DNA of 64,000 nt from Telmatactis stephensoni (taxonomy: Eukaryota; Cnidaria; Anthozoa; Actiniaria; Isophelliidae). Below the pieces are notes generated by a model that did no database searches, was not told the DNA's origin, and saw only the letters and a list, made by a program, of their open reading frames with translations. The position numbers and the translations under genes were made by a program. The DNA is taken from assembly GCA_029948255.1 (NCBI GenBank), contig JALIZF010001815.1:752001-816000 (forward strand). The letters run 5' to 3'. Shown piece after piece: positions 20,735 through 63,024 of this stretch; the first letter of the stretch is position 1, and each line of letters begins with the position of its first letter.

Positions 20735-22309
20735 ATGGCTCCGGCTGGTAGAGTTTTGTTGGTACAAATTCTCTGTTTCTTGTGTTCCTTTTCCATTGGA
20801 CAAGATCGTTTCTCTATTTCACGATCAGAAACAGATTCCTCCGATGTTTTCAAAGTGCATGCTTCTAACTGCAGTTCCTGCTCAAGCTATACAGGCGCTG
20901 AATCCTACGACCCTTCAAGTTGCAAATGTGAATGTAAATATCACTCTTCTACTTTTGGTTTCCATACTTCGTCCTGGTCTTGTCAGGACAATACTGAACT
21001 TAGAAAGAAAGCTGGTAAGTATAGAATTTGTCCATTTATTTTGGTGCTAGAATCAGTCAGGAATTTGGAAATTGCTAAATATCCACTTATGTATCAGCTA
21101 GACATGTGTAGACACTTGCAAATCCGTACACCAATGTGACAGGAAATATTGACCTTTTGAACTCAGAGAACACCTTTGATACTTATGTGATGCTTATGAA
21201 CTTGTCTTTTGCCGGGCTTTTTTGTAAGCCATTTTATAGCCACATCTGAGCCAGTGACATTTCTATCAGATATAATGGTGCTGCTTTTGATTGATCGCCA
21301 CAATTAATGTCTTAAGATATCAGTCTGCAAATTTTAACAAGATTTCTGTCACGATTATACCCTGCGAGCAGAGTCACCCTTTTAAAGGTAAAGGGGGACT
21401 CTGCTCGCAGGGTATCACGATTATCGAACTAACCTACTCTTGATCAAACGCAATCATACTATCATTGCCAGTGACCCGGTCGCTCTGACTTATGCGCATT
21501 TTGTTCCATTCCTCAGTTGAAGAAAGATACTGAAGAAAGTACTTGTATTGATATCATATTTCTTTTCAACTGTTTTGACTTACATCTGTGAATTCTTAAT
21601 TTGGTGTTGACATTGATTGCTGAAGGGTATAAATAGTAGCTTTAAAATGCCATGCGTAAAAATGATCTACATTTAATAATATATAATACATACTGCAATT
21701 TTAAGAGTATTGTTAAAAATTAAAAGAAAATGGATATAAAATGAATAAAAGGTATAGGAACGGAAAACTGTGGGGTTTTTTTCATTTTGGTTTCATTTTC
21801 TATCACTTTTTCAGTTTCACTTTTTAATAATAATTATTCTTGCTATTTCCTTCCTTGTCGCAAATACATCATGTTTCAACACATAAAACCAGCCAGCAAA
21901 GAAACCTTTCACTTTCGAGTACTTGCGTGATTAATCCCCTTTTCGAACTATAAAAACATTAAAATAAACATTGTAGACTGATGTTATCACCGATATAAAT
22001 GGTTTTATGTAAGTACTTATCTCATGTTTAGTGATGGATAGAAGTTGTGACAAGTTCACAAACGTACACATACATAAATATTTAATTACAATGTGTGGAA
22101 GTTTGGGAATCGTTCCATGCATAAATTCGTGATCAGTAATATACAATTTACCTATTTTATTATATAGTGTGTTTTACATCGAATTTTATATTTGTAAATG
22201 TGTACAGTGGCATCTATAAAATTTGTCATTGGCATATTTCAACCCTACACTGATGTGTATTCTCTTATTTTCTTTCTCTCTTTTTTCTCTCTTTGTTTCT
22301 TTGATTCTC

Positions 22310-22342
<33 letters not shown>

Positions 22343-25300
22343 TTGTTGTTGTTGTTGTTTTTTCTCTTCCCGTCTTAGTTGCATTGTTTCTTTGTTTTTT
22401 GTTTCAGTTTTTAATCCCTTGTTTTAATATTCGCTCGAGGACACATTTACGGTTTTTGAGTTGGGAATACAATAGACAGCGAACCCAATACATTCTATTT
22501 ACAGAAATTTGAATTTACAGGTTGTACATTTTATTTTGATCGGGAAGATGCCGACGATCACATCAAAGTTCTTAGAGAAGGATCATCCTTATATGGAATT
22601 GCCCTTCCATCTGTAAACTGTTTCACTGACTATTCATCATCGCAGTTCTTCAAATGTAATTCATGGAAACGACTAAATACGTTGGTTAATTCACCAGGAC
22701 CGTTTTCAATGATACCGGGACTTACTGAAATAATACCTGGAAGCAACATGATATTACACAGAATGCAGGTACAGTGAGATACATATATGATATTGCCTTG
22801 CAATATTTGACTCCCATACCCTAATATAAGGAGACCATATAGTTACTGTCATTCAATGTGCATTTCTCTTTTTAAGGTAAAAAAAGAACCTCTGTTGAGA
22901 GGAATGCTTATTAGTTTACGCTTCACGTGTGCTGGGACGAAAACGTCTTGCATTTTGTTTAAAATAGCTGGACAAATTCAATGTAAGTATTTAAATTAAA
23001 GATAACGAGACAGAGAACATGCGGATGAAAGTTGAGACACGGTCATCTTTGTTGGTTAGAAGTGTGTTATTTCTTCAAACATAATGGGCACAATCCCTAC
23101 ATGTAAAGAAGCATTATTTTTCCTAGTATCCTTCCTTCTTTTGATTCTTCCTTCCCTTTTTCTTTCTTTCTTTCTTTCTTGCTTGCTTGCTTGCTTGCTT
23201 CCCTCTTTCCTTCCTTCCTTCCTTCCTTCCTTCCTTCCTTCCTTCCTTCCTTCCTTCCTTCCTTCCTTCCTTCCTTCCTTCCTTCCTTCCTTCCTTCCTT
23301 CCTTCCTTCCTTCATTTCTTTCTTTCTTTCTCTCTTCCTTCCTAGTTCCTTTCTTCCTTTGTTTCCTCTTTTCTTTCTTTCTTTCTTTCTCTCTCTCTTT
23401 CTCTCTTTCTTTCTTTCTTCCTTTCTTTCTTTCTTTCCTTCCTACTGTACCCAGTAACCTGATATAACATGTTGTTTCTTTTGTAAAAGGTCCTATGAAC
23501 ACATCTTTGACTCTCACTACTACTAAGAGCACAGTGGTGTCAACAAGTCTTTCCTCTGACACCACAAAACAGACATCGACCTCGTTCGTTTACATTCCAG
23601 AAACAACACAACCTTCTACAACGTCCAGCAGTTTACCAGTGACATCTGGAACTGCAGCTCAATCAACAGAGGTAATTTATTGACATTATTACATATTAAC
23701 AGAGGTAATATATTAAACAAGTTATCTACGAATGTAAAGAATTGTTTGTTTTCAAATTGGTGAACCTCTGATAAAAAATATTAGTTTTGTGGCTTTTTTT
23801 CTAGAAAGAATAACTTGATATCCCGTTTTAGTTGACTACTTACAAGAAATTAGTATTGCCGGGTAATTGCAATTGTGCGTCATGGCACCCATTTTGTTTG
23901 TTCGGTTGTGTGTTCCACTCTCACCTTCGTGTCAACTTTCTTGTCATAATCCCTAGTCTGCAGGTCCAGGTAATTGAAAATGTGCGTCATGGCACCCATT
24001 TTGTTTGTTCGGTTGTGCGTACCACTCTCACCTTCATGTCAACTTTCTTGTCATAATCCCTAGTCTGCAGGTCCAGGTAAAGGCAGGCATCGTACCAACA
24101 AAGATGAAACTCCTTCTAGTATAATTGCTGCTGTTTCTGTACTCGTCTTTTTTGTTATCGCCATTGCTGTCGTGTTTGGATATATCATTTGGAAGAAAAG
24201 GCGGTAAGCTATTCTACTTTGGATTTATTTATGAATGAATGAATGAATGAAAAATTTGGTTTTAATTCAGTATTCATTATGGTGGTGAAATGTGTACATT
24301 TTGGTTCGGTTCGATTCATGAATGTATTATGTTTTCTAATAAAATGTTTGTAAATTTCAGAGGTGAAAACGTATGGCTTTTGGACAAACTACGGAATATT
24401 AATAGAGGTACAACGAAAAAGCATCAATTTCTGCCTTATCGCCGTTGCATAATTACGTCTACGATTGGAAATAGGGAGATAGGCTTCCATGAACCCAACA
24501 CAATTTTCTGACATCCTGTAACACATATAGAGGCCGCAGAGTTTTCTGAACTCCGTCAATTTGTGTGACTAATTCAAGTTAACTTATCGCCCATTTCCAT
24601 TCGAGACTTTTGTGTCGCAGCGTGCAGTTATGAAAATGGGCCGGGTGTAGGAAGTGCCCATTTTTTACGGTATTTTTACTCTGTTCTCCGTCGTACATCG
24701 TCATCATCATCATCATGTTTTGTTATTGTCTCTTCTCCTTCCGCAACCCCATCCTTTTCCTCTTCTGTCTGACGCAGTGCGCAGTTATGCAAACGATTGT
24801 AAGAAGCATCCATTTTTACGGTATTTGTATTCAGTTCTCTTTCATACATCTTCATCATCATCATCATCATCATCACCATCATCATCATCATGTTTTTATC
24901 ATCATCTCTTCCTCCGCTAGCTTTTCTACTTTTCTCCAATCTCAGACATACCTAAGTATATCTGTATATTCATTAAATTATAGCAAGGTCAAGAAAAGGC
25001 AGATCTGCACCATCAAAAACATACAAGCAAGAAGAACCAGATGACTCGATTTATGCAGAAATTCCTGAGAGGCCAAATGTTGCTGTTGTTGATAGGAAAG
25101 CCATTGCACCTCCAAAAGGTAAAACCCTTGTTGATGATCTTATCGTTGTTTTATTTGATGAACTTCAATTTAATTTGGATATTATATTCAATCCATAGTT
25201 GTTCTTAACCCTATTTTTTTCGATTCAATATTTTGGTCCAACAACATCCGTTGTATTTAAGAAGATATTGTTTTAGGTCGTTTAAACTTGCTGCCTCGGT

Positions 25301-26276
25301 TTGGACAAGTTTATCCTTAATCCCCAATATAATTGGCCGATTCCAGTTATAAACAACGAAATAGCCAGAAAATCGCGACGCTTGTCACGTGATGTGATGG
25401 TTGCCCCACATTTGGCCTATTTTTTAGACCACCGGCAACTTGCGTGCAGTGCGTTCTGAAAAGTGCTAAAAATAGCCCCAATGCGCAGCTACAAAATTTT
25501 ATAAAGGCGCGGAGTCTCAGTCTCCTGGTCGCGCTCTCCTGGCAACAAGTTCTCCTCAACAGCCATCCTTTTGAGATCCCATCCAATCTCTTATTTTGCT
25601 CAAAACTCCGCATATATTGAGACGTTCTTTATGCAGAGGACCAGCTCCGTACCTATCTTTAGTAACATTTAAAGTGGCAGCCATTTACGAACCCTTGAAT
25701 TTCTTCGTATTTTCTCTCAGATGATTGAAATTGGTTATATTTGCTTTTATGACAGAAATGACCAGATTTACTTTCGAAGATCCCCAGTCAGCCTACGCCC
25801 AACCAATCGAAGGCGACGACGGATCTATGTATGAAGAAGCAGGCTCGGTGCTTCATGGCCGTTTGTCGGTCCATGATGATCAAGATTACGTCCTACCCGT
25901 AGACTCACATCGACTACCACTTAGAAAGCCACCTGTTCCTTTGAACGAAGAATACCCCACTGAACAAGAATATAATGTACTTGAAGGTGAACAAGAATAT
26001 AATGTTCTTGAAGGTGAACAAGAATATAATGTCCTTGAAGATCCAAACAAAGAGACCAATCCTCGCTATGTTCCCAGAGGAGACCGACGAAGGCCACCAA
26101 GTCCTCCAAGACGAAATAATGATGGCGCAAGTAATAGAGAACAAGGAATAGACAATATTGCAGGCAACTACAATGAGAGCGATAGAACAAGCACTTATGA
26201 AGTGCTTAATAGCGGAGGAAGACCTCGATCAATTTATGAGTCTTTGGATCATAGCACATTGACCAGACCCAAATGA
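20735..26276 (+). CDS. R1: single-pass Cys-rich membrane protein with ITIM/ITAM-like tail (9 coding exons)
   Basis: Exons 20735-21014, 22521-22768, 22877-22982, 23490-23671, 23832-23862, 24077-24203, 24361-24407, 24984-25118 and 25756-26276 sum to 1677 bases (558 residues), with phases matching at every junction. Order: signal peptide (MAPAGRVLLVQILCFLCSF); a Cys module ending CKCECKY...SWSCQDNTELR; a second module (GCTFYF...VNC...FFKCNSW, then LRFTCAGTKTSCILFKIAG); a Ser/Thr-rich, probably O-glycosylated stalk; a transmembrane helix (IIAAVSVLVFFVIAIAVVFG); and a basic tail. Tyrosine motifs are SIYAEI, DYVLPV, three EYNVLE repeats, STYEVL and SIYESL, and there is an RRPPSPPRR SH3-type site. 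SIYAEI, STYEVL and SIYESL fit the ITIM consensus. It is likely a plasma-membrane receptor or adhesion protein signalling through SH2 proteins. The ectodomain is unrecognised and the ligand unknown. The start has a G at +4. Confidence 0.75.
21358..21414. mobile_element. 57-bp MITE with 9-bp target duplication, in R1 intron 1
   Basis: Ends TACCCTGCGAGCAGAGTC and GACTCTGCTCGCAGGGTA are inverted. The 9-base sequence TCACGATTA flanks it on both sides (21349-21357 and 21415-21423). A 9-bp duplication is typical of Mutator-like elements. A relative lies at 32468-32551. Confidence 0.8.
22265..22345. repeat. CTTT-rich low-complexity tract
   Basis: Imperfect TTTC/TTTG pyrimidine repeats in R1 intron 1. 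The open frame across it (22198-22512) is a by-product of the composition. Confidence 0.6.
23155..23445. repeat. (CCTT)n / (CTTT)n compound microsatellite
   Basis: A long pure CCTT tract (about 23205-23313) is flanked by CTTT and CTTG tracts in R1 intron 3. It generates long SerPheLeuPro frames on + and GlyArgLysGlu frames on -, which are not genes. Confidence 0.9.
23863..24076 (+). repeat. Two 107-bp tandem units forming a putative new intron of R1
   Basis: GGTAA recurs at 23862, 23969 and 24076, exactly 107 bases apart. The two units between (23863-24076, 214 bases) are about 90% alike. The block starts GTAATT and ends GTCCAG, and removing it joins CCGG to GTAAAGGC in frame. R2 encodes the matching stretch in one exon. 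Confidence 0.75.
24618..24905. repeat. Diverged tandem duplication with (CAT)n tracts in R1 intron 7
   Basis: A unit of about 155 bases containing GCAGTTATG, a CATTTTT(A/T)CGGTATTT stretch and a (CAT)n run occurs twice, with the runs at about 24698-24716 and 24849-24893. Non-coding. Confidence 0.6.
25962..26042 (+). repeat. Three in-frame 27-bp units encoding EQEYNVLEG
   Basis: Units at 25962, 25989 and 26016 differ only at silent or single positions. Each encodes one YNVL tyrosine motif, so the repeat number sets the number of phospho-docking sites in the R1 tail. R2 has a single copy (HEYNVLEQ). Confidence 0.9.
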
Positions 26277-27551: not shown

Positions 27552-30500
27552 ATGGCGCTTCTCTTGTTCGGTTGTGCCGTCATGTTTATGCTTAATACTC
27601 TTTGTTGTGGGCAAGAAGTCTTTACAATCAAACGGGAAGTCAAATTTACCTTTGATTTATTTAAAGTTCCATCTTCCAAATGCACCGCTTCTGGTGAACA
27701 TTGCAAATCATATGATCCAAACGCTTTCGATTCTGGGAGATATTGTTACTGTAGTTGTCCTTATAGGTTTTCTACGTTTGGATTCTTCCACAAGTCATGG
27801 AGCTGTATTGGTAATACTGAAATACGAACTCTAGCAGGTAGGTGTTGATAGTAATGGTTTTGTTAGATTTGCTTAAATTTTGAACTGATGAACTGGAACC
27901 TAAGGTGAGCATCCCATTGCTTGAAATTGTTTCATTTGATGCCGTTTCTGGAAAAGTGGAGAACTATGAGTAAGAAGCTAGGTTCAAAAGAATCGAATTA
28001 AAGATTTTAGAATTTTCGAACAACGGAGTAACAATCAATTCACTTCAAATAAACTGTAAAAGAGTGAAAGAAATCATCCAAAATCATCCGACTATGACAA
28101 AACAACAATACCAAAGGAAGCCCGCGTACATGATAATTTATCCTGTCTTTAACAGCCTGATTTTAAAACGATGCTTTTAGCTCAAAGAGTCGTATCAAAT
28201 TCACAAATTATGATTATTTTTAAACTTTTTTTGTAGAATGAAAGCGTTTGGAAAAAGGGAAAGAGTTATAGATTGATGTCAATATCGTGTTACATGCATC
28301 ATAATGACGTATGAGAAACTCATCAAAACTGAATGCGAAACTCTTTTGGCAGTTTTATTAATAAGCTTTTTTCTATTTGGCAATATATATTATATATTAT
28401 AATATATACATATTATTTTGAAGCTTATACAAACTTATGCCCAGAACTATAAAATAGAATTTTTAAAATGAGCATTTTCATGAGCCACTCCATGCTTTTT
28501 TATATACAAAATTGTCTTGAACATAGTATTAACTATGTCTTGAATAAATAGTTTTACACGTGTTAGGGAACTAGACCGGGATCACTTTGACGACCGGCAA
28601 CATTAAGCCATACCTTTCTGCTGGGAGCTTCGGGACCATTCCGAATCTACAAATCCAGAACTGAGATAAAATACACAATCGAGGATAACCTTGCCTAGGC
28701 TAGCACATTTGTGTGTAGTTGGTCCTGCCCCTGCGAGGTCCAACAACTAGCCATAACAAAATTGTCATGAGGAATCTACGTCACAAAAAGTCCCTTGCCA
28801 AAATTATTAATAGACTACAAATTAAAATCACTGAAAATATAAAATGCATCGAAAAGTGTCGCGTAACAAATGTATAATCACAATTAATTATATTTTATTT
28901 AAGGATGTACGTTGAAGTTCCCGTTAGAAAAAGATTATGAGCCCTTGAGAGTTTTCAACGCAAATCACAATCCACCGCCGTCTGTGACTATTGGAAGTAA
29001 AGGATGTTCAATCGACTTTTCTAAATCACAGTATCTGGAATGTAATGGAAAATGGAGTAAAATACCTTCAGAGCCTGGCAAAAGACCAATGAGTACTTTA
29101 TCAGAAAGAGTTGGCCAGTCACAAAACTACAAGCACACGCTAGGGGTAAGGAAATAGACGCGCCTCGACCTCGATTAGTTGGTTGGAGCTCTTTTGTAGA
29201 GCGATACTTCATGTTTACTAACCAAAGGAATTCGACCAACATTTGCTCTGCAACTTGTAACGCAACAATGTTGCGCAAAGTGTTGCATGATTTTGTTACC
29301 CGTATTTCCGCACCTTTATTTGTTTTTGCTTTTTGAGATCAGATTACGAATGCAGCTTCAGTGAAGGGAAAAGTCATTAAATTGTACTTCAAATGTCCAT
29401 CGTTTTCTCCTTGTGTTCTTTTCAAGGTGGCAGGAGAAACTAAATGTAAGTAACCAACACTTCCTAAAGAAAGCTACGCATTACAATACAACACAACACA
29501 ACACAACACAGCACAACACAACACAACACAACAACACAACACAACACAACACAATACAATACAATTGATGCAATACAATACAATACAATACAATACAATA
29601 CAATACAATTGATACAATACAATACAATACAATACAATACAATACAGCACAACAATACAACACAATAATCAAATAAATTCATCAATTTATATCAATCATA
29701 GTGTAACAATAAATGTCTCAATTCATAAATGTAAAGGTATAATAAACAAATAATCATGAAATAAATGTAGATCAATAGATTAAGATGAAGTTTAGATTTA
29801 TATGTTAATGACGCACACAAAGGTATAAATCTTACATATTGAGTTTCATGTAATTATAATGAATTGAAATCTGTCTCTTCGCCAAAGTAAAAAACAGGTT
29901 TCTTCTCAAAGAGATTTGCCTTGTTCTTGCAACAATGGGAACTCTCTAATATATATCGTATTCTGTATATGGTTAGCTGTTTGTCGAGGTTTACATTTTG
30001 GTTTTAAGAATGATATATTTTTATTTCAATTCATTGGGGTTTTCAGTTTAGAGTATACCTTTCCCAAAATGGCGGCCGATCTCTTTTTTCAACCTAAGAC
30101 GTAATGATCCCCGAAATACCAAATAGTATGTCTCATTTATCAACTGTGCAAAAATTTAGAAAGCTGCAATAAAAATCCGCAGAGATATGAATTTTTCAAA
30201 TTTGCTAATTTTAGCCGAGACAAATGCATGATTGTCTTGGAGTGTAGCATACACCCCCAGCCACACAGTTTCTGTAAAATTTCAGGATTTCAAACACATT
30301 CATATCTGTGCTACCCTGGGTGCCAGGGGTTTATCGTCTCGTTCCGACGTTTATTACTTGATAGGAGAGTCACACGACGAGAAACCCCTGGCCGCGGCAG
30401 TTACAAATCTCACTTCCATGTTGTTTACTAACGATTTGCCTTATTTGGAAACATGGCCAACCCGGCTTTAGGTCACCGTGAGGTCACGCAAACACTGTAG

Positions 30501-33500
30501 ATTGAAGAATGTATACTTTGTAAGGGCTTAAGTGAGAGGAAAAGTCAAACTCAGCTCAAATAAGAAACATTAGTTTGAAAAAAGTAACAATAAACCGGCA
30601 TAAATGTATATAGTATTTTTAAAACGCGTCTTTTACTCGCCATAACGTCAACACTAGTAACGCTTGTAATACAACGCCGGATGTGGCAAAATAGAACCGG
30701 TTGAACGAATCATCCAATCAAATCGCTCGTCAGTGTTTTAGCCAATCACAGAGTTACCTTCAGATTTTTGAAGGTAGTGCTCTGATTGGCTCGGCGCTTC
30801 AAACGGTTAACTCGTGCGCCCAGGGGTTTATTTTCGCTTCTCGCGCCTTCGGCGCTCGCCAACTCTCTCTACCTAAGCTCTAAGGAAAGCGAATAATAAA
30901 CCCCTGGAGCCCAGGGTATATCTGTGCAGATTTTCATTAGAACTTTCTAAATTTTTGCACATTTACCAAGTCAAACATGCTTTTTAGTATTTAGGAATCA
31001 TTACGTCTTGGGTTGAAAAACAATTATGCTAATGAGCAGCAGCCATTTTGGAGAAGGGTCTTTTGAACATGTTCGTGATAGATCTTACAGGGGCCCGTAG
31101 CCCAATCTAATCATAAATCCATGTATCAAACTAACCTTAATATTTGGCGCGCTCAAAATATTTTGATGTTTCTATTGTCAGGTACTGTTGATAGATCAAC
31201 AATAACATCTGCAGTTCCAATACTCACTACTCCTACTACTAGTACTGATTTGCAGACAACATCAAGCAATAATGTGAGTCATTTCAATTTTATTCTCGGT
31301 CCAGCGATTGATGAAACCTCGAAGCATCAGTAAAGTTTTATATTTTGGCGAGTCCAGAATTTTGAAAAGGGGATTCCTCTAGAACGCCCAGGAAATATTC
31401 ATTCAATTACATGGTCGGCTTAAAGAGGAGTGCATAGAACCCTAGGAACTCCTCTAGATCCACTACTGATATATAAGTAGAACAGTATTGGAAATGGTTC
31501 ATTTGACTTATTATAGCAATCATAGCATCAATCCGTTACGATTTCAGTTCATAATAAATTCGCAATTGAATACAGTTTTATACTTACATAAAGTAAGTCA
31601 GTATTGACTATTATAAGTATTAACTATTTCATGTATATTTAGACAATAGTGCCTACCGAAGGGATACGCCCACGTAAAAATGACAGTGGAACCTCATCTG
31701 GTGTAATTGCTGCAGTTATAATCATCGTTATTATCATCATCATCATTGTAGTATTGATTGGTTACGTACTTTGGAAGAGAAAACGGTACATATTGTGAGC
31801 TTATTACCATGTAAAAGGATTTCTTACTCTTCAATATTTCATATTACTTTTTGGATTTCCGCGCGTTGGTGTTTTTAATTGTAGATTGTTTCGAGAAAGG
31901 CATCGAAGGCCGGGACAAGAGTTAAGGTTTATCAATGGGAAAGCGCATTGCCAAATAAATACCAGGGCGAGCGAAAAAGTGCTAGTTTTTGTGTTTCAGT
32001 TTTCTCTACGTAAAAAATGAGCATTGGCTGTTGACGTTTGGTTTTGTGTTACTCAACCGACTTTCGCCGCAGTCTTCATCTTTAACTGAGTAAGGTGTAT
32101 GGAATGTCTAATAATACACACGCACTTTTGTCTATGTTTTTCAGAGGTGAAAGAGTTTGGCTACTTGATAAGTTTTCAAACATAGGTATGGAAGTTATAT
32201 GTACAAATTGAATATACGAAAATTGTGCGTAGCAAGGTCTAAGCTAAGTTTTAAAAGTTACCATTAAACACAAACAAAATACAAACAAACAATCAAACAA
32301 TCAAACAAAAACAATCAAACTTTCTGCTTCTGAGTTTTGTGCTGAATATTGACAAAATTGATGTTGCTCTCTTACTAAAACTATTGATAAAATTGTGAAT
32401 CTAACACTATTTTGTAGTCAGCTGCGGCGTTGCATTCTTACCTTATGTGACGTCATATATGCACAACTACCCTGCGAGCAGAGTCCCCCTTTACCTTCTA
32501 ATCGAGCGAACGCTCGATTAGAAGGTAAAGGGGGACTCTGCTCGCAGGGTAATGCACAACTCACTTGTTATCACGACATTTCTTGATAATTTCGCCAGGG
32601 TTTATATTATCTTAAATGCATGTAATTTCATGAGACATCATTCAGTAAGCTTTGATTTAATTGACGACTTTGCAGATTTCCGATCACTGTCCAGAACAGT
32701 CCGAAAACCCAAAAAATCAAAGCCATACAGAGCAAAAGAAGAACCAGAAATAGAATATCAAGACGAACATATTTATGCTGAAATACCCGATGTGCCTGAT
32801 ATCACTATTGTTGAAGGAAAAACCAACAAGCCATCATCAAACGGTAAAGGCTTTAGGAAACATGCGTCGTCATGGCGACGGTGGTACAATGGCAGATCTA
32901 GGATGGGTTCCATATAGGTTCTAAGGACCCCCTCCCCCCACATTTTGTGAAGTTGATCATTTTAGCGTACCGAACTCCGTCCTTAAACCTAGTTCGATTG
33001 CATCTTCATTGCTATTGCCCCGTCATCCTCTGAAAAAAAATTAACAAAATCACAAACAAACTGGGGAATACAAACATCACAGAATTCCTGCACTAAAAGT
33101 TGGAACCAAATGACATTAAATTACTTTCATCTATAAGGAAATTTAAAGAGCACTATAAAATGTTACTTTTAAGCAAATAATTAGCCTATAATTTTTATTT
33201 TATTCTTTTGTTTATATGTTGTTTTCTAGCTATTTATTATTTATATATTTCTTAAGTGCAGTTCCCTATTGTAAATCACCTCAGTGACATAGGCTTACTG
33301 TTGAAAGAAAACATATATTATATATAAGAGTCTATTCTTAGAACTACATTGGCAATGTGTTTTGCACGTTTTTTAACCCCCCTTTTTATAAAATCAGAGA
33401 TCCGCCTCTGTAACAGAACTCGAAAACAACTCAACGTTACTAGTGAACTTAATGGAGAAACCGCAATACATTTTGAGGATGTAACTAGGACTAGGCAGGA

Positions 33501-34314
33501 TAAGTTCAGCTTAGATGGGTTCCTTGTTCCGATGTGCCGCCGTCATCAATATCGTTAATGACGTCCGGCGATTTAACATGATGTATCACCCCTGGAATGT
33601 GAAACTCGTCTCGCAACGGCAATTGAGGCAAGTTACAGAGAAAAGTTTCAGCGTGTAACAGCACCTTAAGTGCATGTGAACTGAGCCAGTTAGCTACTCG
33701 ATCTTCAGTGACTAACTTAGTGTCAGCGCCCTCGGGCTGCGATTTTAATTTGGGCATTAAAATTATTCAGTCATCTCGGATTGAGTGACTTACCCTCAAT
33801 TTAAGCATACTTTACCTGCTCAAACTCTTACCTGCATGCTGATGCATGTCCTACTTGATTCTCAGGGATGCCTAAGCTAACTTTTGATATTGCAAGTGCC
33901 AATGCTGGACAATCCCAAGATGGTCCCGTAAGGCAAGGGCGGGACTCTAATACTGACGAAGCAGGCTACGTGGTGCCAGTAGACGAATCACCAGAAGCTG
34001 AACGGAGAAGTTCCCAAAAGAGTCCTTATAGTGAGCCCTACGCTTCAAGAAAAAACATAATAGAGGGAGAACCACCTACCGACCAATATGGCTACTCCTG
34101 TCCAAATGCTGATTCACACGAGTACAACGTTTTAGAGCAATCAAAGAGGCATAGCAGTAATGTCTCTGACAGGAATTCCAGAAGACATATCTACAACGAA
34201 GCAGAACAAGTTATTCCTGAACAACAGGATCACGAACCAAGAAGAAATACTACTAAAAAAATTAGACGAAGACCACCTAGTCCACCAAGAAAGATTGTCA
34301 CTGGTGATGTTTAA
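27552..34314 (+). CDS. R2: single-pass Cys-rich membrane protein with ITIM/ITAM-like tail (8 exons)
   Basis: Exons 27552-27837, 28904-29145, 29343-29445, 31182-31273, 31643-31785, 32145-32185, 32676-32843 and 33866-34314 sum to 1524 bases (507 residues), all phases matching. The start AAAATGG is a good context and gives a signal peptide (MALLLFGCAVMFMLNTLCCG). Modules follow R1: CYCSCPY...SWSCIGNTEIR; GCTLKF...KGC...YLECNGKW; LYFKCPSFSPCVLFKVAG; a short Thr/Ser-rich stalk; a transmembrane helix (GVIAAVIIIVIIIIIVVLIG); WKRKRGERVWLLDK. The tail contains HIYAEIP, GYVVPVDE, EYNVLEQ, IYNEAEQ and RRPPSPPRK. It is convergent with R3. It is inferred to be a phosphotyrosine-signalling receptor paralogous to R1, with no known extracellular domain. 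Introns carry several MITEs and a microsatellite. Confidence 0.77.
29484..29668. repeat. (ACAAC)n / (ATACA)n pentanucleotide microsatellite
   Basis: AACAC and AATAC pentamers alternate over about 185 bases in R2 intron 3. The minus-strand Cys/Val/Leu-rich frames across it are artefacts. Confidence 0.9.
30058..31059. mobile_element. Outer inverted-repeat element in R2 intron 3
   Basis: The left arm (about 30058-30190) and right arm (about 30929-31059) are complementary: AAAATGGC...AAGACGTAATGAT...GTGCAAAAATTTAGAAAG on the left is mirrored by CTTTCTAAATTTTTGCAC...ATCATTACGTCTTGGG...GCCATTTTGG on the right. The arms are about 80% alike. The 30312-30918 element is nested inside. Exact outer borders are uncertain. 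Confidence 0.55.
30312..30918. mobile_element. 607-bp TACCCTG-ended element with 9-bp target duplication
   Basis: Ends TACCCTGGGTGCCAGGGGTT and (complement) TACCCTGGGCTCCAGGGGTT are inverted with few mismatches. TATCTGTGC flanks both sides (30303-30311 and 30919-30927). The TACCCTG terminus and 9-bp duplication match the small MITEs at 21358 and 32468. No transposase is seen, so it is a Mutator-type non-autonomous element nested in an older inverted-repeat element. Confidence 0.75.
32468..32551. mobile_element. 84-bp palindromic MITE with 9-bp target duplication, in R2 intron 6
   Basis: Nearly the whole element is a palindrome, with ends TACCCTGCGAGCAGAGTCCC mirrored by GGGACTCTGCTCGCAGGGTA and a centre of TCGAGCGAACGCTCGA. 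ATGCACAAC flanks both sides (32459-32467 and 32552-32560). It has the same ends as the 21358 copy. Confidence 0.85.
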
Positions 34315-49555: not shown

Positions 49556-49559
49556 GTTA

Positions 49560-49799
49560 TGTCGGAAATGAGTTTCAATAATATATGCAAACATAGTATT
49601 ATGTTCCAGTTAAACATTACATGTATTAGCCAATCAAATGATTTAGAAGTGACAGCTTGAAGTTAGTGACCCGTGACTGGGGATGAACATTAGTTAGTTA
49701 GGAGATTTCAAGAGTTGTGTAAGCATATAAACTACTGTGTGATTAAAACCCCTTGTGACCTGTTGCGGACAATCAGCTTTACATTTAGCATTCGCAACA
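49560..49799 (+). repeat. 5' LTR of the BEL/Pao element
   Basis: 240 bases. It contains CATATAAAC (about 49723-49731), a candidate TATA box, and ATTAAA at 49742, a candidate polyadenylation signal. Assignment of these signals is by position only. Confidence 0.9.
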
Positions 49800-49801
49800 T
49801 T

Positions 49802-49819
49802 TGGCGACCACGCCAGGAC
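49802..49819 (+). promoter_or_regulatory. Primer binding site
   Basis: TGGCGACCACGCCAGGAC begins two bases after the 5' LTR and starts with TGG, the complement of a tRNA CCA end. The first 11 bases fit the 3' end of some arginine tRNAs; the exact tRNA is not established. Confidence 0.65.
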
Positions 49820-49828
49820 ACTGGAGCT

Positions 49829-52800
49829 ATGGAAGAGAAGTTAAACGTGAAACTCAAGCTTTTGGAATTGACACGAGGCAAAACAAAAGGAGTCATTGAA
49901 ACAGGGAATGTCGACAAAATCAAGAGACAAAAGGATCTTATTGAAGGAGTTTTAAAAGCCGTAGAACTTCTTAAGATTGAAGTGGAGGAGCAGAAGCTAA
50001 GTAGCGGTGAGTCAATGGAAACTATAGAAGAATGGGGGCAACAAATCGACGAGAAAATCGCCCTTGGTGACGAAGGTATGTCAATACTGTCTAAAGGTAT
50101 TAAAGAAATTGAAGCTCGCGAAGAAAACGAGAAACTCGAAAAGCAAGAAATGCTAAGCGCCCGAAAGCGTGAGGATGAATTGAAGTTCCAAATGGAAATG
50201 CAAGCCAAACTTGGAGAGCCAACGAATGTTAACAAATTGTCTAACGAGAAACCTCGTGTAAAATTACCTAAGTTAACAATCACGCCTTATGATGGGAAAT
50301 TGGAGAACTGGCTATCGTTTTGGAACAAATTCGAGGCTGAAGTTGATTCTGTTAGCATGCCAGCGATTACAAAATTCGCTTATCTAAAGGAAATGGTGGA
50401 GCCGAAAGTCTTGAGTGCTATAGATGGACTTCCTTTCTCCACGGAAGGATATGAAAGAGCGAAGAACATACTAAAATCTAACTACGGTAAGACGAGTGAA
50501 ATTATTAATGCTTACGTCGAAAACATCCAATCATTGCCTGTTATTAATGGATCACAGCCAGCAAAAATTCACCAATTCTGCAAGACACTGACATTTAATG
50601 TTCAATCTTTGGAAACTCTTGGAAAAACTACAGAGTGCTGGGCTTTAGTGCGTGGTGTCCTCGACAAATTGCCAGGAATCAAAGCTGATTTAGTAAAAGG
50701 AAAACCAGATTGGCAGTCTTGGGGTTTCTCCCAGCTATTATCTGCATTGCGTGAGTGGACAGAGATACACCCTGAGACACTTGTTACAACACCAAGACCT
50801 ACAGAAAAACCAGCCCGTCAGCAGAGAAGTTTCCAAGCGCAGGAATATACACCCTCATGCGTGTATTGTGAGCAGTCAACGCATAAGTCTGTGGAATGTA
50901 CAAAGTTGAAGACAAGTGAGGAGAGAAAGAAATTCTTGAGTGAGCATAAAAGGTGTTTTAATTGCACTGGAACCAAGCATCAGGCAGCGAAATGCAGGAG
51001 CCGTGGAAATTGTGGAAAGTGTCAAGGGCGTCATCATACATCTATCTGTGATAAAACCCAGCAAAGATCAGCTGATGGCGCTGCAATGACCGCGGTAAGT
51101 GAAAAAGTTTGTCATCCTGTTGTAATTGTTAGAGTCAATGGAGTGAAGTGTCGTGCACTCTTGGATACGGGGTCAACAAGCACCTATATATCAGCTTTTC
51201 TTGTGGATATGCTAAAAATTAAGCCCAAAGAGACACTCACTCGCAGTATTAAGACCATTGTGGGTCAAGTTACTAAGCGTGTAGAGACTTATGATGTTAA
51301 GATTAGCGACAATGATGAAAAATGTGTACTTCCGGTTTCTGCAACAAAAGTTGAACGAAGGGAACTGTTGTCGCTAGATAATCCAAATTACCCAGAGCTT
51401 TTAGGAAGATACGAATACCTCAAAGGTATAAATATGGAAGAAACATCTACCAAACCTGTTCTCCCAATACATGTTATTCTCGGAGCCAACGAGTACACAA
51501 AGATTAAAATGGCTGGTTACCAGAGAGCTGGAAAGATGGGGGAGCCTGTAGCTGAGCAAACAAGGTTCGGGTGGAAAATCATGACGACAGGCGCTGAAGC
51601 TGACTTGGAAAGCATGTTTCTCACTCAAACCGCCATTGGAGACTACGAGGAGCTGTGTCGCTTGGACGTGCTTGGGTTGGAAGACAGACCAACAGGAGAC
51701 CAGAATGTGGTGCATGAAGAGTTTATCGAGCAACTTAAGCGAAGCACGGAAGGCTGGTACGAAACTGGACTTCCCTGGAAGGGAGATCACCCTCCTTTAC
51801 CAGATAACAAGGCAGGAAGTCTGAAACGACTGGAAAGTTTGGTGGCAAAACTTAAGCGAAATGGAAACCTTGAAGCCTACAACGACATCATAAGTGAGCA
51901 GCTCGAGAAAGGAATTATAGAGCCTGCTGATGAACCTGCCAAAGGTAAGGAATTTTATATTCCTCACAAACTTGTAATTAGAGAAAACGTTGAATCAACG
52001 AAGTTACGAATTGTGTATGACGCCTCTGCAAAAGCGAGCGCAAATGCGCCATCACTGAATGACTGTCTGGACATAGGACCACCATTACAAAACCAATTGT
52101 GGAAGGTTTTGGTGCGTTCCAGATTCCACGCAGTAGCTATAATCGGAGATATGAAGAAAGCATTCCTCCAAGTGCGCATCCGCGAACAGGATAGGGATGC
52201 CTTGCGCTTCCACTGGATCGACATAGAAAACCCTGGTGTTGTGAAAACGTACCGGTTTACACGAGCGTTATTTGGTTTGGGGCCATCACCCTTTCTGCTT
52301 GCGGGAGTGGTGCAACAGCATCTGAGTACCAGTCGCCACGAAGCGCCTAAGTGTGTTAACGAGATTGAGCGTGGGCTGTATGTTGATGATCTTTTGCTGG
52401 GAGGCAACACAGTGGAGGAAGCTCGTGAGATGAAGCAAACGGCGACGGAAATATTTGGAAAGGCTCACTTCGAGCTGCATAAATGGAATTCTAACGTCGG
52501 TGAGCTGGAGTGTGATCAAGATAATGACTCTGTGCAACAAGTGAGTAACTCTCTCCAGCAGTCACAAGTAAGTGAAAACTCTGTTACTTATGCTAAAGAA
52601 CAGCTTGGTGTAAGAACCGGAGAATCCAAGATTCTTGGGTTAGATTGGGACAAACAGAGTGATACATTAGCTGTAAAGTTTCCTAAGGAAGAAACTCAGC
52701 CTACCAAGAGGGGGATACTAAGCAAAGTTTCTAAAGTGTATGACCCTCTTGGTTTGGTTTCACCCCTCACCCTGCAAGGGAAACTCCTATACAGTGAAGC

Positions 52801-55027
52801 GTGCAAAGAAAAATGTGCATGGGATGCAAAACTTCCTGATGACTTATTAAAGAAATGGAGTAAATGGGAGAAGGGCCTTCCTGTTCATGTTGAAGTACCT
52901 AGAGCTCTTGTAAACGTTGCCCAACCTATTAAGGACATTGCGCTCCATGTTTTTGGAGATGCAAGTGGTCATGGAGTAGCTGCGGCTGTTTACGCTGTGG
53001 TGAAGCAAGAATCAACCATCAGTCAAGGGCTTGTAGGGGCACGTGCGCGCCTAGCTAAACAAGGGCTTACAATACCACGTTTAGAACTCGTTGCAGGTCA
53101 TATGGCAGTCAACTTGTTAACCAACGTCCAGAATGCACTTGACGGGCTACCAGTGGTGTCTTTGAACGCATGGCTCGACAGTACCGTTGCACTTCACTGG
53201 ATATCTGGCAGTGGCGAGTACAAGCAATTCGTGGGAAATCGTGTGCGTAAGATCAAAGAGCACGACAAAGTCGTCTGGAGACACGTTCCAACACATGACA
53301 ATCCTGCTGATCTAGGTAGCCGCGGTGGACCTGTAGACAAAGACAAGCAACTATGGTGGAAGGGACCTGACTGGCTCAGCGACCCATCAGCATGGCCACC
53401 AGATATCATCACCTCGCCCACAGTTGAGTCCGAAGCAGAGAAGAAGACTGCAACACATGTAGCCGCCTTGGCCAAGCAAGAGCTTGATGAGTTTGATCAA
53501 CTTCTCCAAAGGCAGACATTATGGCGCACGTTTAGAGTTGGCGCTTGGATGTACAGGTTCATACATAATGCGAGACAACAACGAGAGAACAGGATAACGG
53601 GTCCATTAAAGACCGAAGAAATAGAAAAGCAAAGAACCATTTGGGAGAAGAAGGTCCAGAAACAGTGTTCAGGAAACGAAAAGTTCAAAAGGGAGCAAAC
53701 TCAGCTGAATCTACAACCTAACAGCGACGGAGTGTTATTGTGCCATGGAAGAATTCAGGGAGAATATCCTGTCTACATACCAGACAGCTCTGCTCTCGCT
53801 GAAAAGCTAGTAGAAGACGCCCACAAGAATACTCTACATGGGGGAGTAGGCCTCACCATGGCCAAAGTGCGTGAGAGATATTGGATTCCTCGTCTTCGAA
53901 GATTGGTGAAGCGAACCGTGAAGATGTGTGCTGGATGTAAAAGGTTTCAAGCTGTGGCCTTCTCGAATCCTCCTGTCGGCCCACTGCCGAGGGACAGAAC
54001 TGAAGGGAGTACTCCCTTTGAAGTAGTCGGGGTTGATTATGCAGGCCCTATTGAGTACAAAGTATCTCAAAAGAAAACAGGTAAAGCATATGTCTTATTG
54101 TATACATGCAGCTTAACACGTGCTGTACATTTGGAGTTACTCCCAACGCTGGAGACCCAAGACTTCATGAAAAGTTTCAAAGCTTTTGTAGCAAGAAGAG
54201 GTCGCCCAAAGAAGATCTATTCAGATAACGCGAGCACCTTCGTGGGAGCGGCTAAATTGTTACGCACAATAATGAACGACGAGAAGTTCAACGACTTGCT
54301 GGCGAAGAATAGTATTGTCTGGCAGTTCAATTTAAGTCGAGCCCCATGGTGGGGAGGCCAGTTTGAACGACTGGTGGGGCTGATGAAGCGTTCTCTTCGA
54401 AAGTCTATTGGCCGGGGACTCCTTAAGTGGAAGGAACTAGAGGAAGTACTTCTAGATGTCGAGATTGCACTGAACGGAAGACCATTAAGTTACGTCGAGG
54501 ATGATGTCCAGCTACCAATCCTAACTCCAAACACACTGTTGTATGCACAGACCAACATCGTCCCAGAGCTATCTACTCATCACGTGGAAGACGACTATCT
54601 GAGAAAACGAGCAAAGTACTTACAGCGTTGTAAACAGGTGCTGTGGAATCGCTGGACGTCGGAATATGTGCGTGGACTACGAGAACGTCACAACATGAAG
54701 AACAACAGCAAAACAGTCGTGCTTAGTAGAGGAGATGTGGTGGTAATTAGAGGAGATGACAAGGACCGAAATAAGTGGAAGATAGGAATCGTGGAAGACC
54801 TTATCGTCGGACGTGACGGCGTACTGCGTGCTGCCAAGCTACGAAGTGGCAGAGGAATACTGGAGCGGGCGGTACAACAGTTGTACCCTTTGGAACTCTC
54901 ATGTGATCGAGAAAATCGCAACACTGAAGTACAACTCAACCCACAGGCGCAAGTGTTCAGACCACGAAGAGATGCTGCTGTGGCTGCTAGACTACGCATC
55001 CAAGATGATGCAGACGATGAAAACTGA
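49829..55027 (+). CDS. BEL/Pao Gag-Pol polyprotein
   Basis: The frame is 1732 residues from the first ATG after the primer site (MEEKLNVKLK). An in-frame start further upstream lies inside the LTR and is less likely. Approximate order: coiled-coil-rich Gag-like region 1-330; two zinc-knuckle-like CCHC/CXXC clusters near residues 344-395; retropepsin motif LLDTGST near 445; Pao-type linker; reverse transcriptase with YVDD near 851; RNase H with FGDASG near 1046; integrase HHCC zinc finger near 1330-1370 and the D,D,E core (VDYAGP near 1402, SDNAS near 1465, E near 1514). The frame shows no stop or frameshift, so the element may still be active. Gag and Pol are fused in one frame, as is common in this group. 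The protein makes the DNA copy of the element and inserts it. Confidence 0.93.
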   Translation: MEEKLNVKLKLLELTRGKTKGVIETGNVDKIKRQKDLIEGVLKAVELLKIEVEEQKLSSGESMETIEEWGQQIDEKIALGDEGMSILSKGIKEIEAREENEKLEKQEMLSARKREDELKFQMEMQAKLGEPTNVNKLSNEKPRVKLPKLTITPYDGKLENWLSFWNKFEAEVDSVSMPAITKFAYLKEMVEPKVLSAIDGLPFSTEGYERAKNILKSNYGKTSEIINAYVENIQSLPVINGSQPAKIHQFCKTLTFNVQSLETLGKTTECWALVRGVLDKLPGIKADLVKGKPDWQSWGFSQLLSALREWTEIHPETLVTTPRPTEKPARQQRSFQAQEYTPSCVYCEQSTHKSVECTKLKTSEERKKFLSEHKRCFNCTGTKHQAAKCRSRGNCGKCQGRHHTSICDKTQQRSADGAAMTAVSEKVCHPVVIVRVNGVKCRALLDTGSTSTYISAFLVDMLKIKPKETLTRSIKTIVGQVTKRVETYDVKISDNDEKCVLPVSATKVERRELLSLDNPNYPELLGRYEYLKGINMEETSTKPVLPIHVILGANEYTKIKMAGYQRAGKMGEPVAEQTRFGWKIMTTGAEADLESMFLTQTAIGDYEELCRLDVLGLEDRPTGDQNVVHEEFIEQLKRSTEGWYETGLPWKGDHPPLPDNKAGSLKRLESLVAKLKRNGNLEAYNDIISEQLEKGIIEPADEPAKGKEFYIPHKLVIRENVESTKLRIVYDASAKASANAPSLNDCLDIGPPLQNQLWKVLVRSRFHAVAIIGDMKKAFLQVRIREQDRDALRFHWIDIENPGVVKTYRFTRALFGLGPSPFLLAGVVQQHLSTSRHEAPKCVNEIERGLYVDDLLLGGNTVEEAREMKQTATEIFGKAHFELHKWNSNVGELECDQDNDSVQQVSNSLQQSQVSENSVTYAKEQLGVRTGESKILGLDWDKQSDTLAVKFPKEETQPTKRGILSKVSKVYDPLGLVSPLTLQGKLLYSEACKEKCAWDAKLPDDLLKKWSKWEKGLPVHVEVPRALVNVAQPIKDIALHVFGDASGHGVAAAVYAVVKQESTISQGLVGARARLAKQGLTIPRLELVAGHMAVNLLTNVQNALDGLPVVSLNAWLDSTVALHWISGSGEYKQFVGNRVRKIKEHDKVVWRHVPTHDNPADLGSRGGPVDKDKQLWWKGPDWLSDPSAWPPDIITSPTVESEAEKKTATHVAALAKQELDEFDQLLQRQTLWRTFRVGAWMYRFIHNARQQRENRITGPLKTEEIEKQRTIWEKKVQKQCSGNEKFKREQTQLNLQPNSDGVLLCHGRIQGEYPVYIPDSSALAEKLVEDAHKNTLHGGVGLTMAKVRERYWIPRLRRLVKRTVKMCAGCKRFQAVAFSNPPVGPLPRDRTEGSTPFEVVGVDYAGPIEYKVSQKKTGKAYVLLYTCSLTRAVHLELLPTLETQDFMKSFKAFVARRGRPKKIYSDNASTFVGAAKLLRTIMNDEKFNDLLAKNSIVWQFNLSRAPWWGGQFERLVGLMKRSLRKSIGRGLLKWKELEEVLLDVEIALNGRPLSYVEDDVQLPILTPNTLLYAQTNIVPELSTHHVEDDYLRKRAKYLQRCKQVLWNRWTSEYVRGLRERHNMKNNSKTVVLSRGDVVVIRGDDKDRNKWKIGIVEDLIVGRDGVLRAAKLRSGRGILERAVQQLYPLELSCDRENRNTEVQLNPQAQVFRPRRDAAVAARLRIQDDADDEN

Positions 55028-55136
55028 ACACTAGTATAACCATATATATAGCTAAGAAACATTTAATTTTTTTGTATTCTGAACAATTTTTTATGAACAT
55101 TTATTGATTCGGTGTTCATCCACCTTCGGTGATGAA

Positions 55137-55146
55137 CAGGGGAGTG
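55137..55146 (+). other. Polypurine tract candidate
   Basis: AGGGGAGTG-type purine run immediately before the 3' LTR, the expected position for plus-strand DNA priming. Confidence 0.6.
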
Positions 55147-55386
55147 TGTCGGAAATGAGTTTCAATAATATATGCAAACATAGTATTATGTTCCAGTTAA
55201 ACATTACATGTATTAGCCAATCAAATAATTTAGAAGTGACAGCTTGAAGTTAGTGACCCGTGACTGGGGATGAACATTAGTTAGTTAGGAGATTTCAAGA
55301 GTTGTGTAAGCATATAAACTACTGTGTGATTAAAACCCCTTGTGACCTGTTGCGGACAATCAGCTTTACATTTAGCATTCGCAACA
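55147..55386 (+). repeat. 3' LTR of the BEL/Pao element
   Basis: 240 bases, identical to the 5' LTR except for one G-to-A difference. Confidence 0.93.
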
Positions 55387-55734
55387 GTTAATATAGTATT
55401 GTTTTTTTTTATCTAGCTATTGATGATTAGATGATAAATACGGCCCAATACCAGTTTCTAAATGGTATAGGCATTAAAACCCTAGCCTGACGTTGTTGTT
55501 TAGTTTGACAAATTCAAACCCTCTTCAGGATATGAGCATCAGAAGTATTCGATGACAGATAGCCTTGGAGACCACCCCGCGCCAGAAGTATCGATAACTC
55601 TATAGCTGGTTAGTCCTTAAAGGAATGCCGCCAGACTGCTAGCTAAAACAAAGATGAGTTGCGCTAGTATAAAGTGGTACGAAGACGATCAAAATCTGAC
55701 CAACAAACTACTGACCAACCAACAAACAAACAAA

Positions 55735-55797
55735 CTAACGAACGAACGAACGAACGAACGAACAAACAAACGAACGAACGAACGAACGAACGAACTA
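55735..55797. repeat. (CGAA)n microsatellite
   Basis: Tandem AACG/CGAA tetramers with a few CAAA interruptions. Confidence 0.85.
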
Positions 55798-56639: not shown

Positions 56640-56745
56640 CTAGCGCTTGCGTACTAATTGGGGGACACTATACTCTCACACTCACTACCTGTACATTAAA
56701 TATTTTTCACACATCGCTTAACTCACATGTTGATTTTTGCAGTAA
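56640..56745 (-). mobile_element. Truncated SINE copy
   Basis: Contains CACACTCACTAC, TACATT and TAACTCACATGTTGATTTTTGC in the same order and spacing as the body of the 13896-14182 SINE. A simple repeat (GATGAT) lies on its left, as in that copy. The tRNA-like head is missing. Confidence 0.6.
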
Positions 56746-60330: not shown

Positions 60331-61550
60331 TTACGTCTGCCAGCCTGGACTACCGTCATCATTATATAATGTCACGTACTCCTCGTTGTCACGCAAAGTA
60401 CTACCTTCGCCATTTCCTAGCAGGCCCTGCGCAACCTCATAAACTGGTTCTGTAGTCTTTGGAATATTTATGTACAGTTTTTTACCATTTTCTTTTGGGA
60501 TTTCGTAGCCTGTGTTGGGATCCCTGTGTGTCACCCAAGCGGGGTTTATCCTTGAACTTTCCACGATTGCGTAATCGTAAATTAAACCTATAACAATTTT
60601 GGATATGATGATCACTATGACAACTATGTCACAAAAGTTCATGCCCCAGATGTTTCCTTAATTATCTTAATTTGACTAATCAAAAGGATTTTCTGAACAT
60701 TTAAAGAAAAATCTTGTAGATTGTTCTTAGTTTTAATGGGCTTAAAAATTGGACGTTATTCATTCGCATTTTATTCCCAAAACGGCTCTTTTCAAATATG
60801 CGCATTTTCGTAGCCTGTCATTTTGTTCACAATAAGCAGTTTTGAGTTTCTCAAGCCATTCATTTTTAAAATATAACGAAAATAAGCCACATCTTTTGAT
60901 CTTTTACAGGCTTAAAGATCTAAAATGAGACTTTCTGGAATGTCTGCCAAAGACAACTTAAAAGTACTCCAAAAAAATGCGAATGTTTTATTAAGCAAGC
61001 ATGCAAAAATGTGAAATTTTCATCACGCCAAAAGCCATCACAATTGATTCCGTGGTTGTTAAATAACGGGATAAAAATAAAGGACGCCACGTTGGCTGCT
61101 ACTGAAATTCCTCACTGACACAAATAGTGGACACAACAGAGAAGAAATCCTAAGAATTTTGGTAACTCAGAGCCAGTTGATAAAAAGCTATTGCAGTTAA
61201 AATCAGGAGCACGAACTTTTGAGACTTCCTGTAAAGAGTTAATCTACGATAATCTTGCATTACCTTGGTTTGGTGTTTGTGATGGAGTTGGTTCTATGTA
61301 GCTGCTGCGAGAGGCATTCAAATCATCTCTATTTGAACTGCGTTTTGATCTGAGAAGTAAAAAGAACTTATTGTTTATTTCCGATTATTTTAAAGGAGGG
61401 CGTAGTGCACGATGGGATAAATTTGTGCACACGTAATTATTGGTTCTCTTTTCCCCTACTCGAGGTTATTAAGTCCATTCGATTCCTTCCACCTTCCTTC
61501 CCTCCTTCGTTCCTTTCTATACTTCCTTTTCTCTCTTCCCTCTTTCATTC

Positions 61551-61581
<31 letters not shown>

Positions 61582-63024
61582 TTCTTCCTTCCGTCCTGGC
61601 TTTTCGCTTTATCCCCCCCCCCCTTTTCCCTCCCCCCCATTCCCCCGCTCCGGCCCGCCTCTCTTTTTCTATCTCTCTAGCTTTTCTTTTCTTTCGGTCT
61701 AATTTTTCATAGTATAGTTATGAAAAAATAGATGAGTATGTTTAGATTCTTACTTTTTCCTTTTAAGTAAAATTACTGTGACAACAGTAGCAACAATAAT
61801 TATACAGACGATTCCCAAAGCAGTAACCACGCCCACTATAATCGGTGAGATTCCTTGTGGTGTTTCTTGTTGTTGTGTCGCTAATACTACAGTTGAGATA
61901 AACTAGAAATAGGGAAAAAGGGAAAATTAACAACAATTCAAAATACAACGCCCCGTTTTTGTGAACCATACATAAACTGTACAATGATAATTAACAAACT
62001 CATTTTACAGTGTTAGTCTGTTAATTTTTCATAGATACATTTGACAGGTTTGAACTAGTACCTACGAATAAAATAACTTCTGTATGACAGTAAACAGCCA
62101 TTTTACCCGAGCAAATGAATATGCGCTCAACAGTGCTTCTTGGAGAAAATGGGATTTTAAATACCCAATGATGCTGTCAAACACCTAAATTATACATAAG
62201 AATGCATGGTAAGATAGTTCGAGTAACTCAACCATTGAGTACCTTAATAGTTGATTTACGTTCTGTACTGGTTTTCGTTGTTGTTGTTGTTGGCTTTATT
62301 GTCGTTGTTGATGTAGCAAATGAAACAGGACCTGCATTTATACAAATTGTAATAAGCATAACTTGATATAGCCTCTAACTCTTCTTAACTATCTTGCTTG
62401 GGTTTCCTGTGGCCCTAGAAAGAAGAGAGTCCAGTCTACTTCATCTTTCTAAGCCACAGGACACCCAAGTAAGAGGATCTAGAGGAGTTGCCTGCTCAGG
62501 AGACTGAACTTCATTGATAACAATTATGCAAAACATTCCCCGAATTAACGAGCACTTTCTCATCACATGCACCACAGATGGCTGCTAAAGAAAGGTTATG
62601 AATTACAGTTGAAGATCGTTAATACGGCCACGTAAGGGCCGGTCAAACGTAACTGGCCGTAATAACGAGGTGGCAGTATTTTTACAAGAAATTAAGTGGG
62701 ATCTCTAATTGCTAGACCAAAATGGGGTGGAAATCATATAAACCTGTATAAACGATATAGCGGGGTTGCTGTATTAACGAGGTGGCCCTAAGATAGCCTC
62801 AGTATCAGACCCTTTCGGGGAGGAAGAGGGGTGAGGGGAAGGGGTTGCCGTAAGGGCGCGGGATCTCACTGTGTTCGGAGTTAATTAAACTTGTTTCTAT
62901 GTTACTACATACATTTCATTGTCCCAGCCATTTTGAAGAGAATACACGATGACTTTGCAGGTGCTTGGCAGCTAAAATGAAGACTAATAAGTCGACCAGA
63001 TAAAAGCCGTGTAGCCTTGGATAT
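60331..63024 (-). CDS. R4: receptor paralog, 3' part (5 exons; exons 1-2 not seen)
   Basis: Minus-strand exons are 63024-62913, 62331-62243, 61902-61754, 61349-61264 and 60587-60331 (693 bases, 230 residues plus stop), with phases matching R1-R3. The first corresponds to exon 3 of the family (LISLHFSCQAPAKSSCILFK). Then come a Thr-rich stalk (TTTIKPTTTTTKTSTER), a transmembrane helix (PIIVGVVTALGIVCIIIVATV), a basic juxtamembrane exon (KSKRSSNRDDLNASRSSYIE) and a tail with LIYDYAIVES, GYEIPK, LYINIP, VYEVAQ and EYVTLYN. The exons for the signal peptide and first Cys modules should lie beyond 63.1 kb or off the window. The final exon has no PPSPPR motif. It is inferred to be a phosphotyrosine-signalling membrane protein like R1-R3. 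Confidence 0.72.
60680..61250. repeat. Intronic block shared with R3 (R4 last-intron copy)
   Basis: Counterpart of 40340-41095, in the last intron of R4, whereas the R3 copy is in intron 2. Same strand and same order of segments, roughly 75-80% alike by eye. Confidence 0.7.
61480..61680. repeat. CTTT/CCTT/CCC pyrimidine tract
   Basis: Microsatellite-like pyrimidine sequence in an R4 intron, with a (CTTT)n core at about 61550-61585. The open frame over it is an artefact. Confidence 0.8.
62392..62476. repeat. Hairpin of about 85 bases in R4 intron
   Basis: The left arm CTTGCTTGGGTTTCCTGTGG and the complement of the right arm CTTACTTGGGTGTCCTGTGG pair over about 34 bases with a short loop. It could be a MITE remnant or a small-RNA precursor; nothing decides between them. 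Confidence 0.5.
62610..62880. mobile_element. Possible pogo/Tigger-like DNA transposon remnant
   Basis: On the minus strand it begins CAGTGAGATCCCG and contains two CCACCTCGTTA(A/T)TAC blocks with GGCC or GCAA nearby. This style is found in pogo-type element ends. No transposase is seen. Assignment is from memory of the pattern and weak. Confidence 0.35.

Follow-up and report, generated by a model that had tools for sequence, protein, structure and literature searches.

The Alr allorecognition proteins of Hydractinia have ectodomains built from Ig-like folds. Candidate Hydractinia allorecognition genes form a clustered family and carry both ITIM- and ITAM-type motifs, according to the accessible part of a review (PMC12065747). 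Shavenoid (Sha), a Drosophila protein, is described as a regulator of the actin cytoskeleton on which the actin hairs of flies depend (PMC9375228, accessible part), and the accessible part of one paper describes the gene as limited to arthropods. Invertebrate homologues of Syk/Zap70 with ITAM-binding SH2 domains accompany CARD-CC/Bcl10, cnidarians are among the holders of Bcl10, and old ITAM receptors upstream of Syk are themselves only inferred, as far as the accessible text of one study goes (PMC5978004); from this we infer that cnidarians possess Syk. Here we compare these systems with a cluster of four genes, R1 to R4, in the 64-kb stretch of Telmatactis stephensoni DNA that was analysed (the window; positions are counted from its first letter). 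We lean modestly towards the view that R1-R4 are old type I membrane proteins of a Sha_B_N-like class that couple their ectodomain to tyrosine-motif signalling.

R1 (plus strand, 20735-26276, eight exons, 552 aa), R2 (plus strand, 27552-34314, eight exons, 507 aa) and R3 (minus strand, 47939-37991, seven exons, 398 aa, with a short tail) were modelled by manual splicing at GT/AG sites, and each reads from start to stop as a single open reading frame after joining. R4, on the minus strand, is a 230-aa piece with exons 3-7 visible; a search of the 64-kb window for its exons 1-2 found none up to the window edge. Exon 1 encodes a signal peptide and a Sha_B_N-like cysteine module (R1, 20735-21014; R2, 27552-27837; R3, 47627-47939). 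It is followed by exon 2, which in R1 holds a GC.F.F...C...CN..W module (R1, 22521-22768; R2, 28904-29145; R3, 41109-41341), and by exon 3, in R1 an L..F.C...C.LFK.AG module (R1, 22877-22982; R2, 29343-29445; R3, 40121-40229; R4, 62913-63024). Exon 4 encodes a stalk that is Ser/Thr-rich in R1 (23490-23671) and R2 (31182-31273), basic in R3 (39822-40015) and Thr-rich in R4 (62243-62331), and exon 5 the transmembrane helix (R1, 24064-24203, with the acceptor picked by frame; R2, 31643-31785; R3, 39330-39454; R4, 61754-61902). The juxtamembrane exon 6 is basic in R1 (24361-24407) and is found at 32145-32185 in R2 and 61264-61349 in R4; in R3 it is a short basic exon of 35 nt (38486-38520), placed mainly by phase and the weakest exon of that gene. 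The tail occupies exon 7 (24984-25118, with SIYAEI) and exon 8 (25756-26276, with YVLPVD, three EYNVLE repeats, PPSPPR, a STYEVL and SIYESL pair, and the stop) in R1, and exon 7 (32676-32843, with HIYAEIP) and exon 8 (33866-34314, with YVVPVD, EYNVLE, PPSPPR and the stop) in R2. Exon 7 is the last in R3 (37991-38178, a short tail with SSIYESEK and the stop) and in R4 (60331-60587, a tyrosine-rich tail with GYEIPKE and the stop).

Intron phases 1-0-1-0-2-1 are common to R1, R2 and R3, R1 and R2 have an additional seventh intron of phase 1, and the four introns after exon 3 of R4 have the expected phases, 1-0-2-1. The phases therefore agree at all visible introns of the four genes, as an earlier reading made from the sequence alone (hereafter the sequence-only reading) had reported. 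That reading also gave the genes equal exon counts, which turn out to be eight, eight, seven and at least five, the same for R1 and R2 only; its shared module order is found in R1-R3, R4 showing module 3 and beyond only, and its tyrosine-rich tails are found in R1, R2 and R4 but not in R3, whose short tail has three tyrosines. Because the exons were positioned with the help of GT/AG sites and phase, both are only partly independent support for the gene models, and amino-acid similarity is the stronger support. In tblastn comparisons within the window, with masking and composition correction off, exon 1 matches between R1 and R2 (E about 3e-14) and between R1 and R3 (E 2e-6), exon 3 matches between R1 and R4 (E 5e-6), and no match below E 0.3 lies outside the listed exons. 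Downstream of the signal peptide, R1, R2 and R3 share twelve aligned cysteines, three of which are also present in R4 exon 3. All four proteins contain a single strongly hydrophobic stretch, to which R1-R3 add an N-terminal one. These mutual exon-level matches and aligned cysteines bear out the proposal that the four genes are paralogues encoding type I membrane proteins whose cysteine-rich ectodomain is conserved. Between R1 and R2, dN/dS is below 1 in both the ectodomain (dN 0.70, dS 2.50) and the tail (dN 0.68, dS 2.35); dS is saturated, so these values say only that both genes are constrained and old. R1-R4 thus look like real, old duplicate genes.

The sequence-only reading called the ectodomain unrecognised and proposed profile searches, which place a resemblance in exon 1. 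A Pfam scan matched Sha_B_N (PF23328, Shavenoid isoform B N-terminal) to equivalent N-terminal positions in R1, R2 and R3, with whole-protein scores of 19.5, 13.7 and 15.8 bits, respectively, all below the curated cut-off of 24.4 bits. Exon 1 alone scores above the cut-off in R1 (24.6 bits, E 3e-5) and below it in R2 (18.3 bits, E 0.0028) and R3 (17.4 bits, E 0.0054), and no other Pfam model matches exon 1 in all three genes. Among Pfam matches, none is confined to exons 2-3, the only ones there being weak, below cut-off, and spread across exon 3, the stalk and the membrane helix. The likeness to Drosophila Shavenoid, the namesake of Sha_B_N, is a likeness to the Pfam model rather than to the fly sequence.

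Of 8000 candidates scored, a profile of R1-R4 picked out six relatives (P0001 to P0006). P0001 and P0002 are short ENA contigs whose whole-protein Sha_B_N scores (19.9 and 23.7 bits) fall below the cut-off, P0003 and P0004 are uncharacterised Exaiptasia diaphana proteins (LOC110251129 isoform X2 and LOC110244477, respectively), P0005 is an uncharacterised protein of the sponge Oscarella lobularis that is annotated with Sha_B_N in the database, and P0006 is a partial metagenome protein. No bilaterian Shavenoid came up in the R1-R4 profile search, and P0005 as query returned only itself. The tail of R1 matches P0004 (E 7e-34) and P0006 (E 9e-49) far better than R2 does (about 2e-8), which suggests that R1 and R2 probably split before the split from Exaiptasia. 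The available P0004 sequence is tail only, and agrees with R1 motif by motif; that of P0003 starts just upstream of module 3 and continues through the stalk, transmembrane helix and YNVLE repeats, with 11 YxxL/I/V sites compared to six in R1.

The sponge protein P0005 scores 27.7 bits against Sha_B_N, above the cut-off, and its cysteine module sits at the same N-terminal place as exon 1 of R1-R3. It also shares a module-3-like stretch, a Ser/Thr-rich stalk, a transmembrane helix and the tail stretches RLYEEIG and DDGYEVPIEAR; its tail, however, is far shorter and lacks both YNVLE repeats and an ITIM. Aligned with hhalign, the whole profile A1 matches P0005 across a 63-column part of modules 2-3 (E 5.5e-7), and the module-wise probabilities are small (4.9 per cent for exon 1, 11.6 for exons 2-3 and 2.3 for the tail). 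When P0005 was shuffled with its cysteines fixed, the real score was reached by none of 200 shuffles for exons 2-3 alone, by one of 200 for the tail, and by 55 of 200 for exon 1, which is not beyond chance. Evidence for the link to Sha_B_N and P0005 is therefore cumulative, combining the weak match of exon 1 with a match in module 3 and with collinear tail stretches; no single hit is strong. Taken together, these similarities make it likely that R1-R3 are related to Sha_B_N, and we file them as probable relatives, not confirmed members.

Tail motifs were scored with generally known preferences: strict ITIMs as [SIVL]xYxx[ILV], ITAM-type pairs as Yxx[LI]x6-12Yxx[LI], YxxP as an SH2 site and PxxPxR as an SH3 site. 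By consensus scan, R1 has three strict ITIMs (shuffle mean 0.46, P 0.008) and R2, R3 and R4 have none, such that SIYAEI, STYEVL and SIYESL, which the sequence-only reading assigned to the tails, are present in R1 but are not a family-wide character; P0004 has three, and P0003 and P0006 have two each. ITAM-type pairs number one in R1 (P 0.038), four in P0003, three in P0004 and two in P0006, with shuffle means of 0.03-0.04, and none in R2, R3, R4 or P0005; the terminal STYEVL/SIYESL pair of R1 fits loose ITAM spacing. The sites kept among the relatives of R1 take the forms SIYAEI/SIYTEI, STYEVL/SVYEPL/SIYEDL and SIYESL/SIYEPL/SVYEAL. The R1 motifs YEE[AT], Y[VI]xP, YNVLE-type repeats, RRxPxPP and SxYExL...RPxSxYExL recur in P0004 and P0006, and SIYxEIP recurs in P0004. 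YxxPx[DE] is found in R1 (two sites), R2, R4, P0004 (two sites), P0006 and P0005, and is absent from R3 and P0003; taken one at a time these sites mean little (P 0.01-0.15), and what makes them of interest is that they recur. The SH3-type PPSPPR, also part of the sequence-only reading, is found in R1 and R2 and is lacking in R3 and R4. Exon 8 of R1 has three near-identical EQEYNVLE repeats at 25960-26040 (plus strand), and similar arrays are present in the Exaiptasia relatives; given these arrays, gain or loss of repeats seems to alter how many YxxL sites a tail carries.

We propose that the cysteine-rich ectodomain, consisting of the exon-1 module and the exon 2-3 module and presumably held by disulfides, lies outside the cell, carried in R1, R2 and R4 by a Ser/Thr-rich stalk. 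Binding or clustering by an outside ligand would lead to phosphorylation of tail tyrosines by Src-type kinases, whereupon paired YxxL sites could recruit tandem-SH2 proteins (of the Syk/Shark or SHP type), YxxP sites could recruit SH2 adaptors (of the Crk or PLC-gamma type), and PPSPPR in R1 and R2 could recruit SH3 proteins. Adaptor recruitment would most likely result in remodelling of cortical actin, and R3, with its short tail, may signal weakly or act as a decoy. Matches to motifs would not by themselves establish that the tails are phosphorylated, and the suggestion that the family acts in recognition or adhesion signalling is to be read in the same way. Structure models of the family were too weak to lend support, and the lack of strict ITIMs and ITAM-type pairs in R2, R3 and R4 counts against the proposal. 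Nonetheless, the tails of R1-R4 offer a short list of candidate SH2 and SH3 partners, and candidate receptors for a putative cnidarian Syk pathway.

The exon-1 resemblance could reflect shared cysteine spacing only, with R1-R3 having a separate cysteine-rich domain without any tie to Shavenoid. Indeed, four of 52 shuffles of exon 1 with cysteines fixed match Sha_B_N (one of 10 made from R1, R2 and R3, at E 0.036, and three of 42 made from R1, R2 and P0002, with a best E of 0.0078), indicating that cysteine spacing alone yields weak matches; moreover, one of the 42 hit a different, unrelated family (E 0.0015), which leaves the values for R2 and R3 unconvincing alone. The sub-threshold scores of whole R1-R3 and the chance-level alignment of exon 1 with P0005 point the same way. 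Nonetheless, exon 1 of each of R1, R2 and R3 outdoes all 52 shuffles on Sha_B_N by E-value, exon 1 of P0002 scores 25.2 bits on its own and P0005 also clears the cut-off, and P0005 has module-3 and tail stretches in common with the family; hence, we consider coincidental spacing quite improbable. R1-R4 might also be structural anchors between membrane and actin, or adhesion proteins, as Shavenoid is in fly hairs, with tail YxxL sites serving sorting or endocytosis instead of SH2 signalling. The exon-1 resemblance, the requirement for Sha in fly actin hairs (PMC9375228, accessible part) and the SH3-type PPSPPR of R1 and R2 all suit such anchors, and an actin link may be common to Shavenoid and R1-R4; however, the ITIM-shaped and paired YxxL sites kept among the relatives of R1 exceed what single sorting motifs would account for, and we regard a purely structural role as unlikely, though deserving of some weight.

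A cluster of duplicates with ITIM/ITAM-like tails also invites comparison with Alr, in which case R1-R4 would be allorecognition or immune receptors with polymorphic ectodomains and ITIM/ITAM tails that discriminate self from non-self; the accessible part of the review does state that unrelated receptors converge on ITIM/ITAM pathways (PMC12065747). The sequence-only reading considered the ectodomain unlike Ig, and the Pfam matches of R1-R4 agree in including no Ig family at E-values up to 1, a result of sequence profiles, which can miss Ig-like folds, and for R4 one that covers the protein without exons 1-2. R1 and R2, read here from a single haplotype, are also old, with saturated dS and dN/dS below 1, a clear relative of the R1 tail is kept in Exaiptasia, and strict ITIMs occur in R1 alone among the four genes. 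The comparison with Alr thus comes down to tail motifs; an Alr-like role is not supported, and we consider it very unlikely. Alternatively, R3 and R4 may be decaying copies, leaving only R1 and R2 functional: R3 has a short tail, one exon whose position depends mainly on phase, and a first intron of 6 kb that contains a large inverted repeat, and R4 has no exons 1-2 within the window. Given that R3 retains the 12 cysteines, the intron phases and an open frame, and that R4 may extend beyond the window edge, we doubt strongly that the two genes are decaying.

Signalling receptors of a Sha_B_N-like class, the reading we favour, would have consequences for the history of Shavenoid. The link to Sha_B_N, if right, contradicts the limitation to arthropods for the N-terminal domain: a gene called arthropod-specific would have cnidarian and sponge relatives, and a fly hair gene would descend from an ancient family of receptor-like proteins. 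By extension, an ancestral receptor class of sponges and cnidarians, with Shavenoid-type ectodomains and ITAM-like/YxxP tails, might supply the upstream receptors of a cnidarian Syk pathway, with fly Shavenoid as a derived survivor, a scenario to which we give little credence at present.

Other elements lie close to the four genes. The inverted repeat in the first intron of R3 has two arms of 462 nt (41858-42319 and 42649-43110) that are 100% complementary and 329 nt apart, and is either a foldback element of recent origin or an error of the assembly. Between R3 and R4 is a BEL/Pao-type LTR element (49560-55389, plus strand) with 243-nt terminal direct repeats that are 99% identical; its single open frame, about 1750 codons long, exceeds the cut-off for Pao peptidase and for the integrase zinc-binding domain and falls just short of it for reverse transcriptase, and the element looks young. 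Lastly, a galactosyltransferase-like gene is present upstream of R1 in tandem copies on the plus strand (182-1027, 7688-8533 and 14876-15700), the first of which, the sole catalytic copy scanned, matches PF01762 over the cut-off, and two copies have a long Q/N/R/E-rich open frame upstream (4693-6990 and 11632-13656, plus strand).
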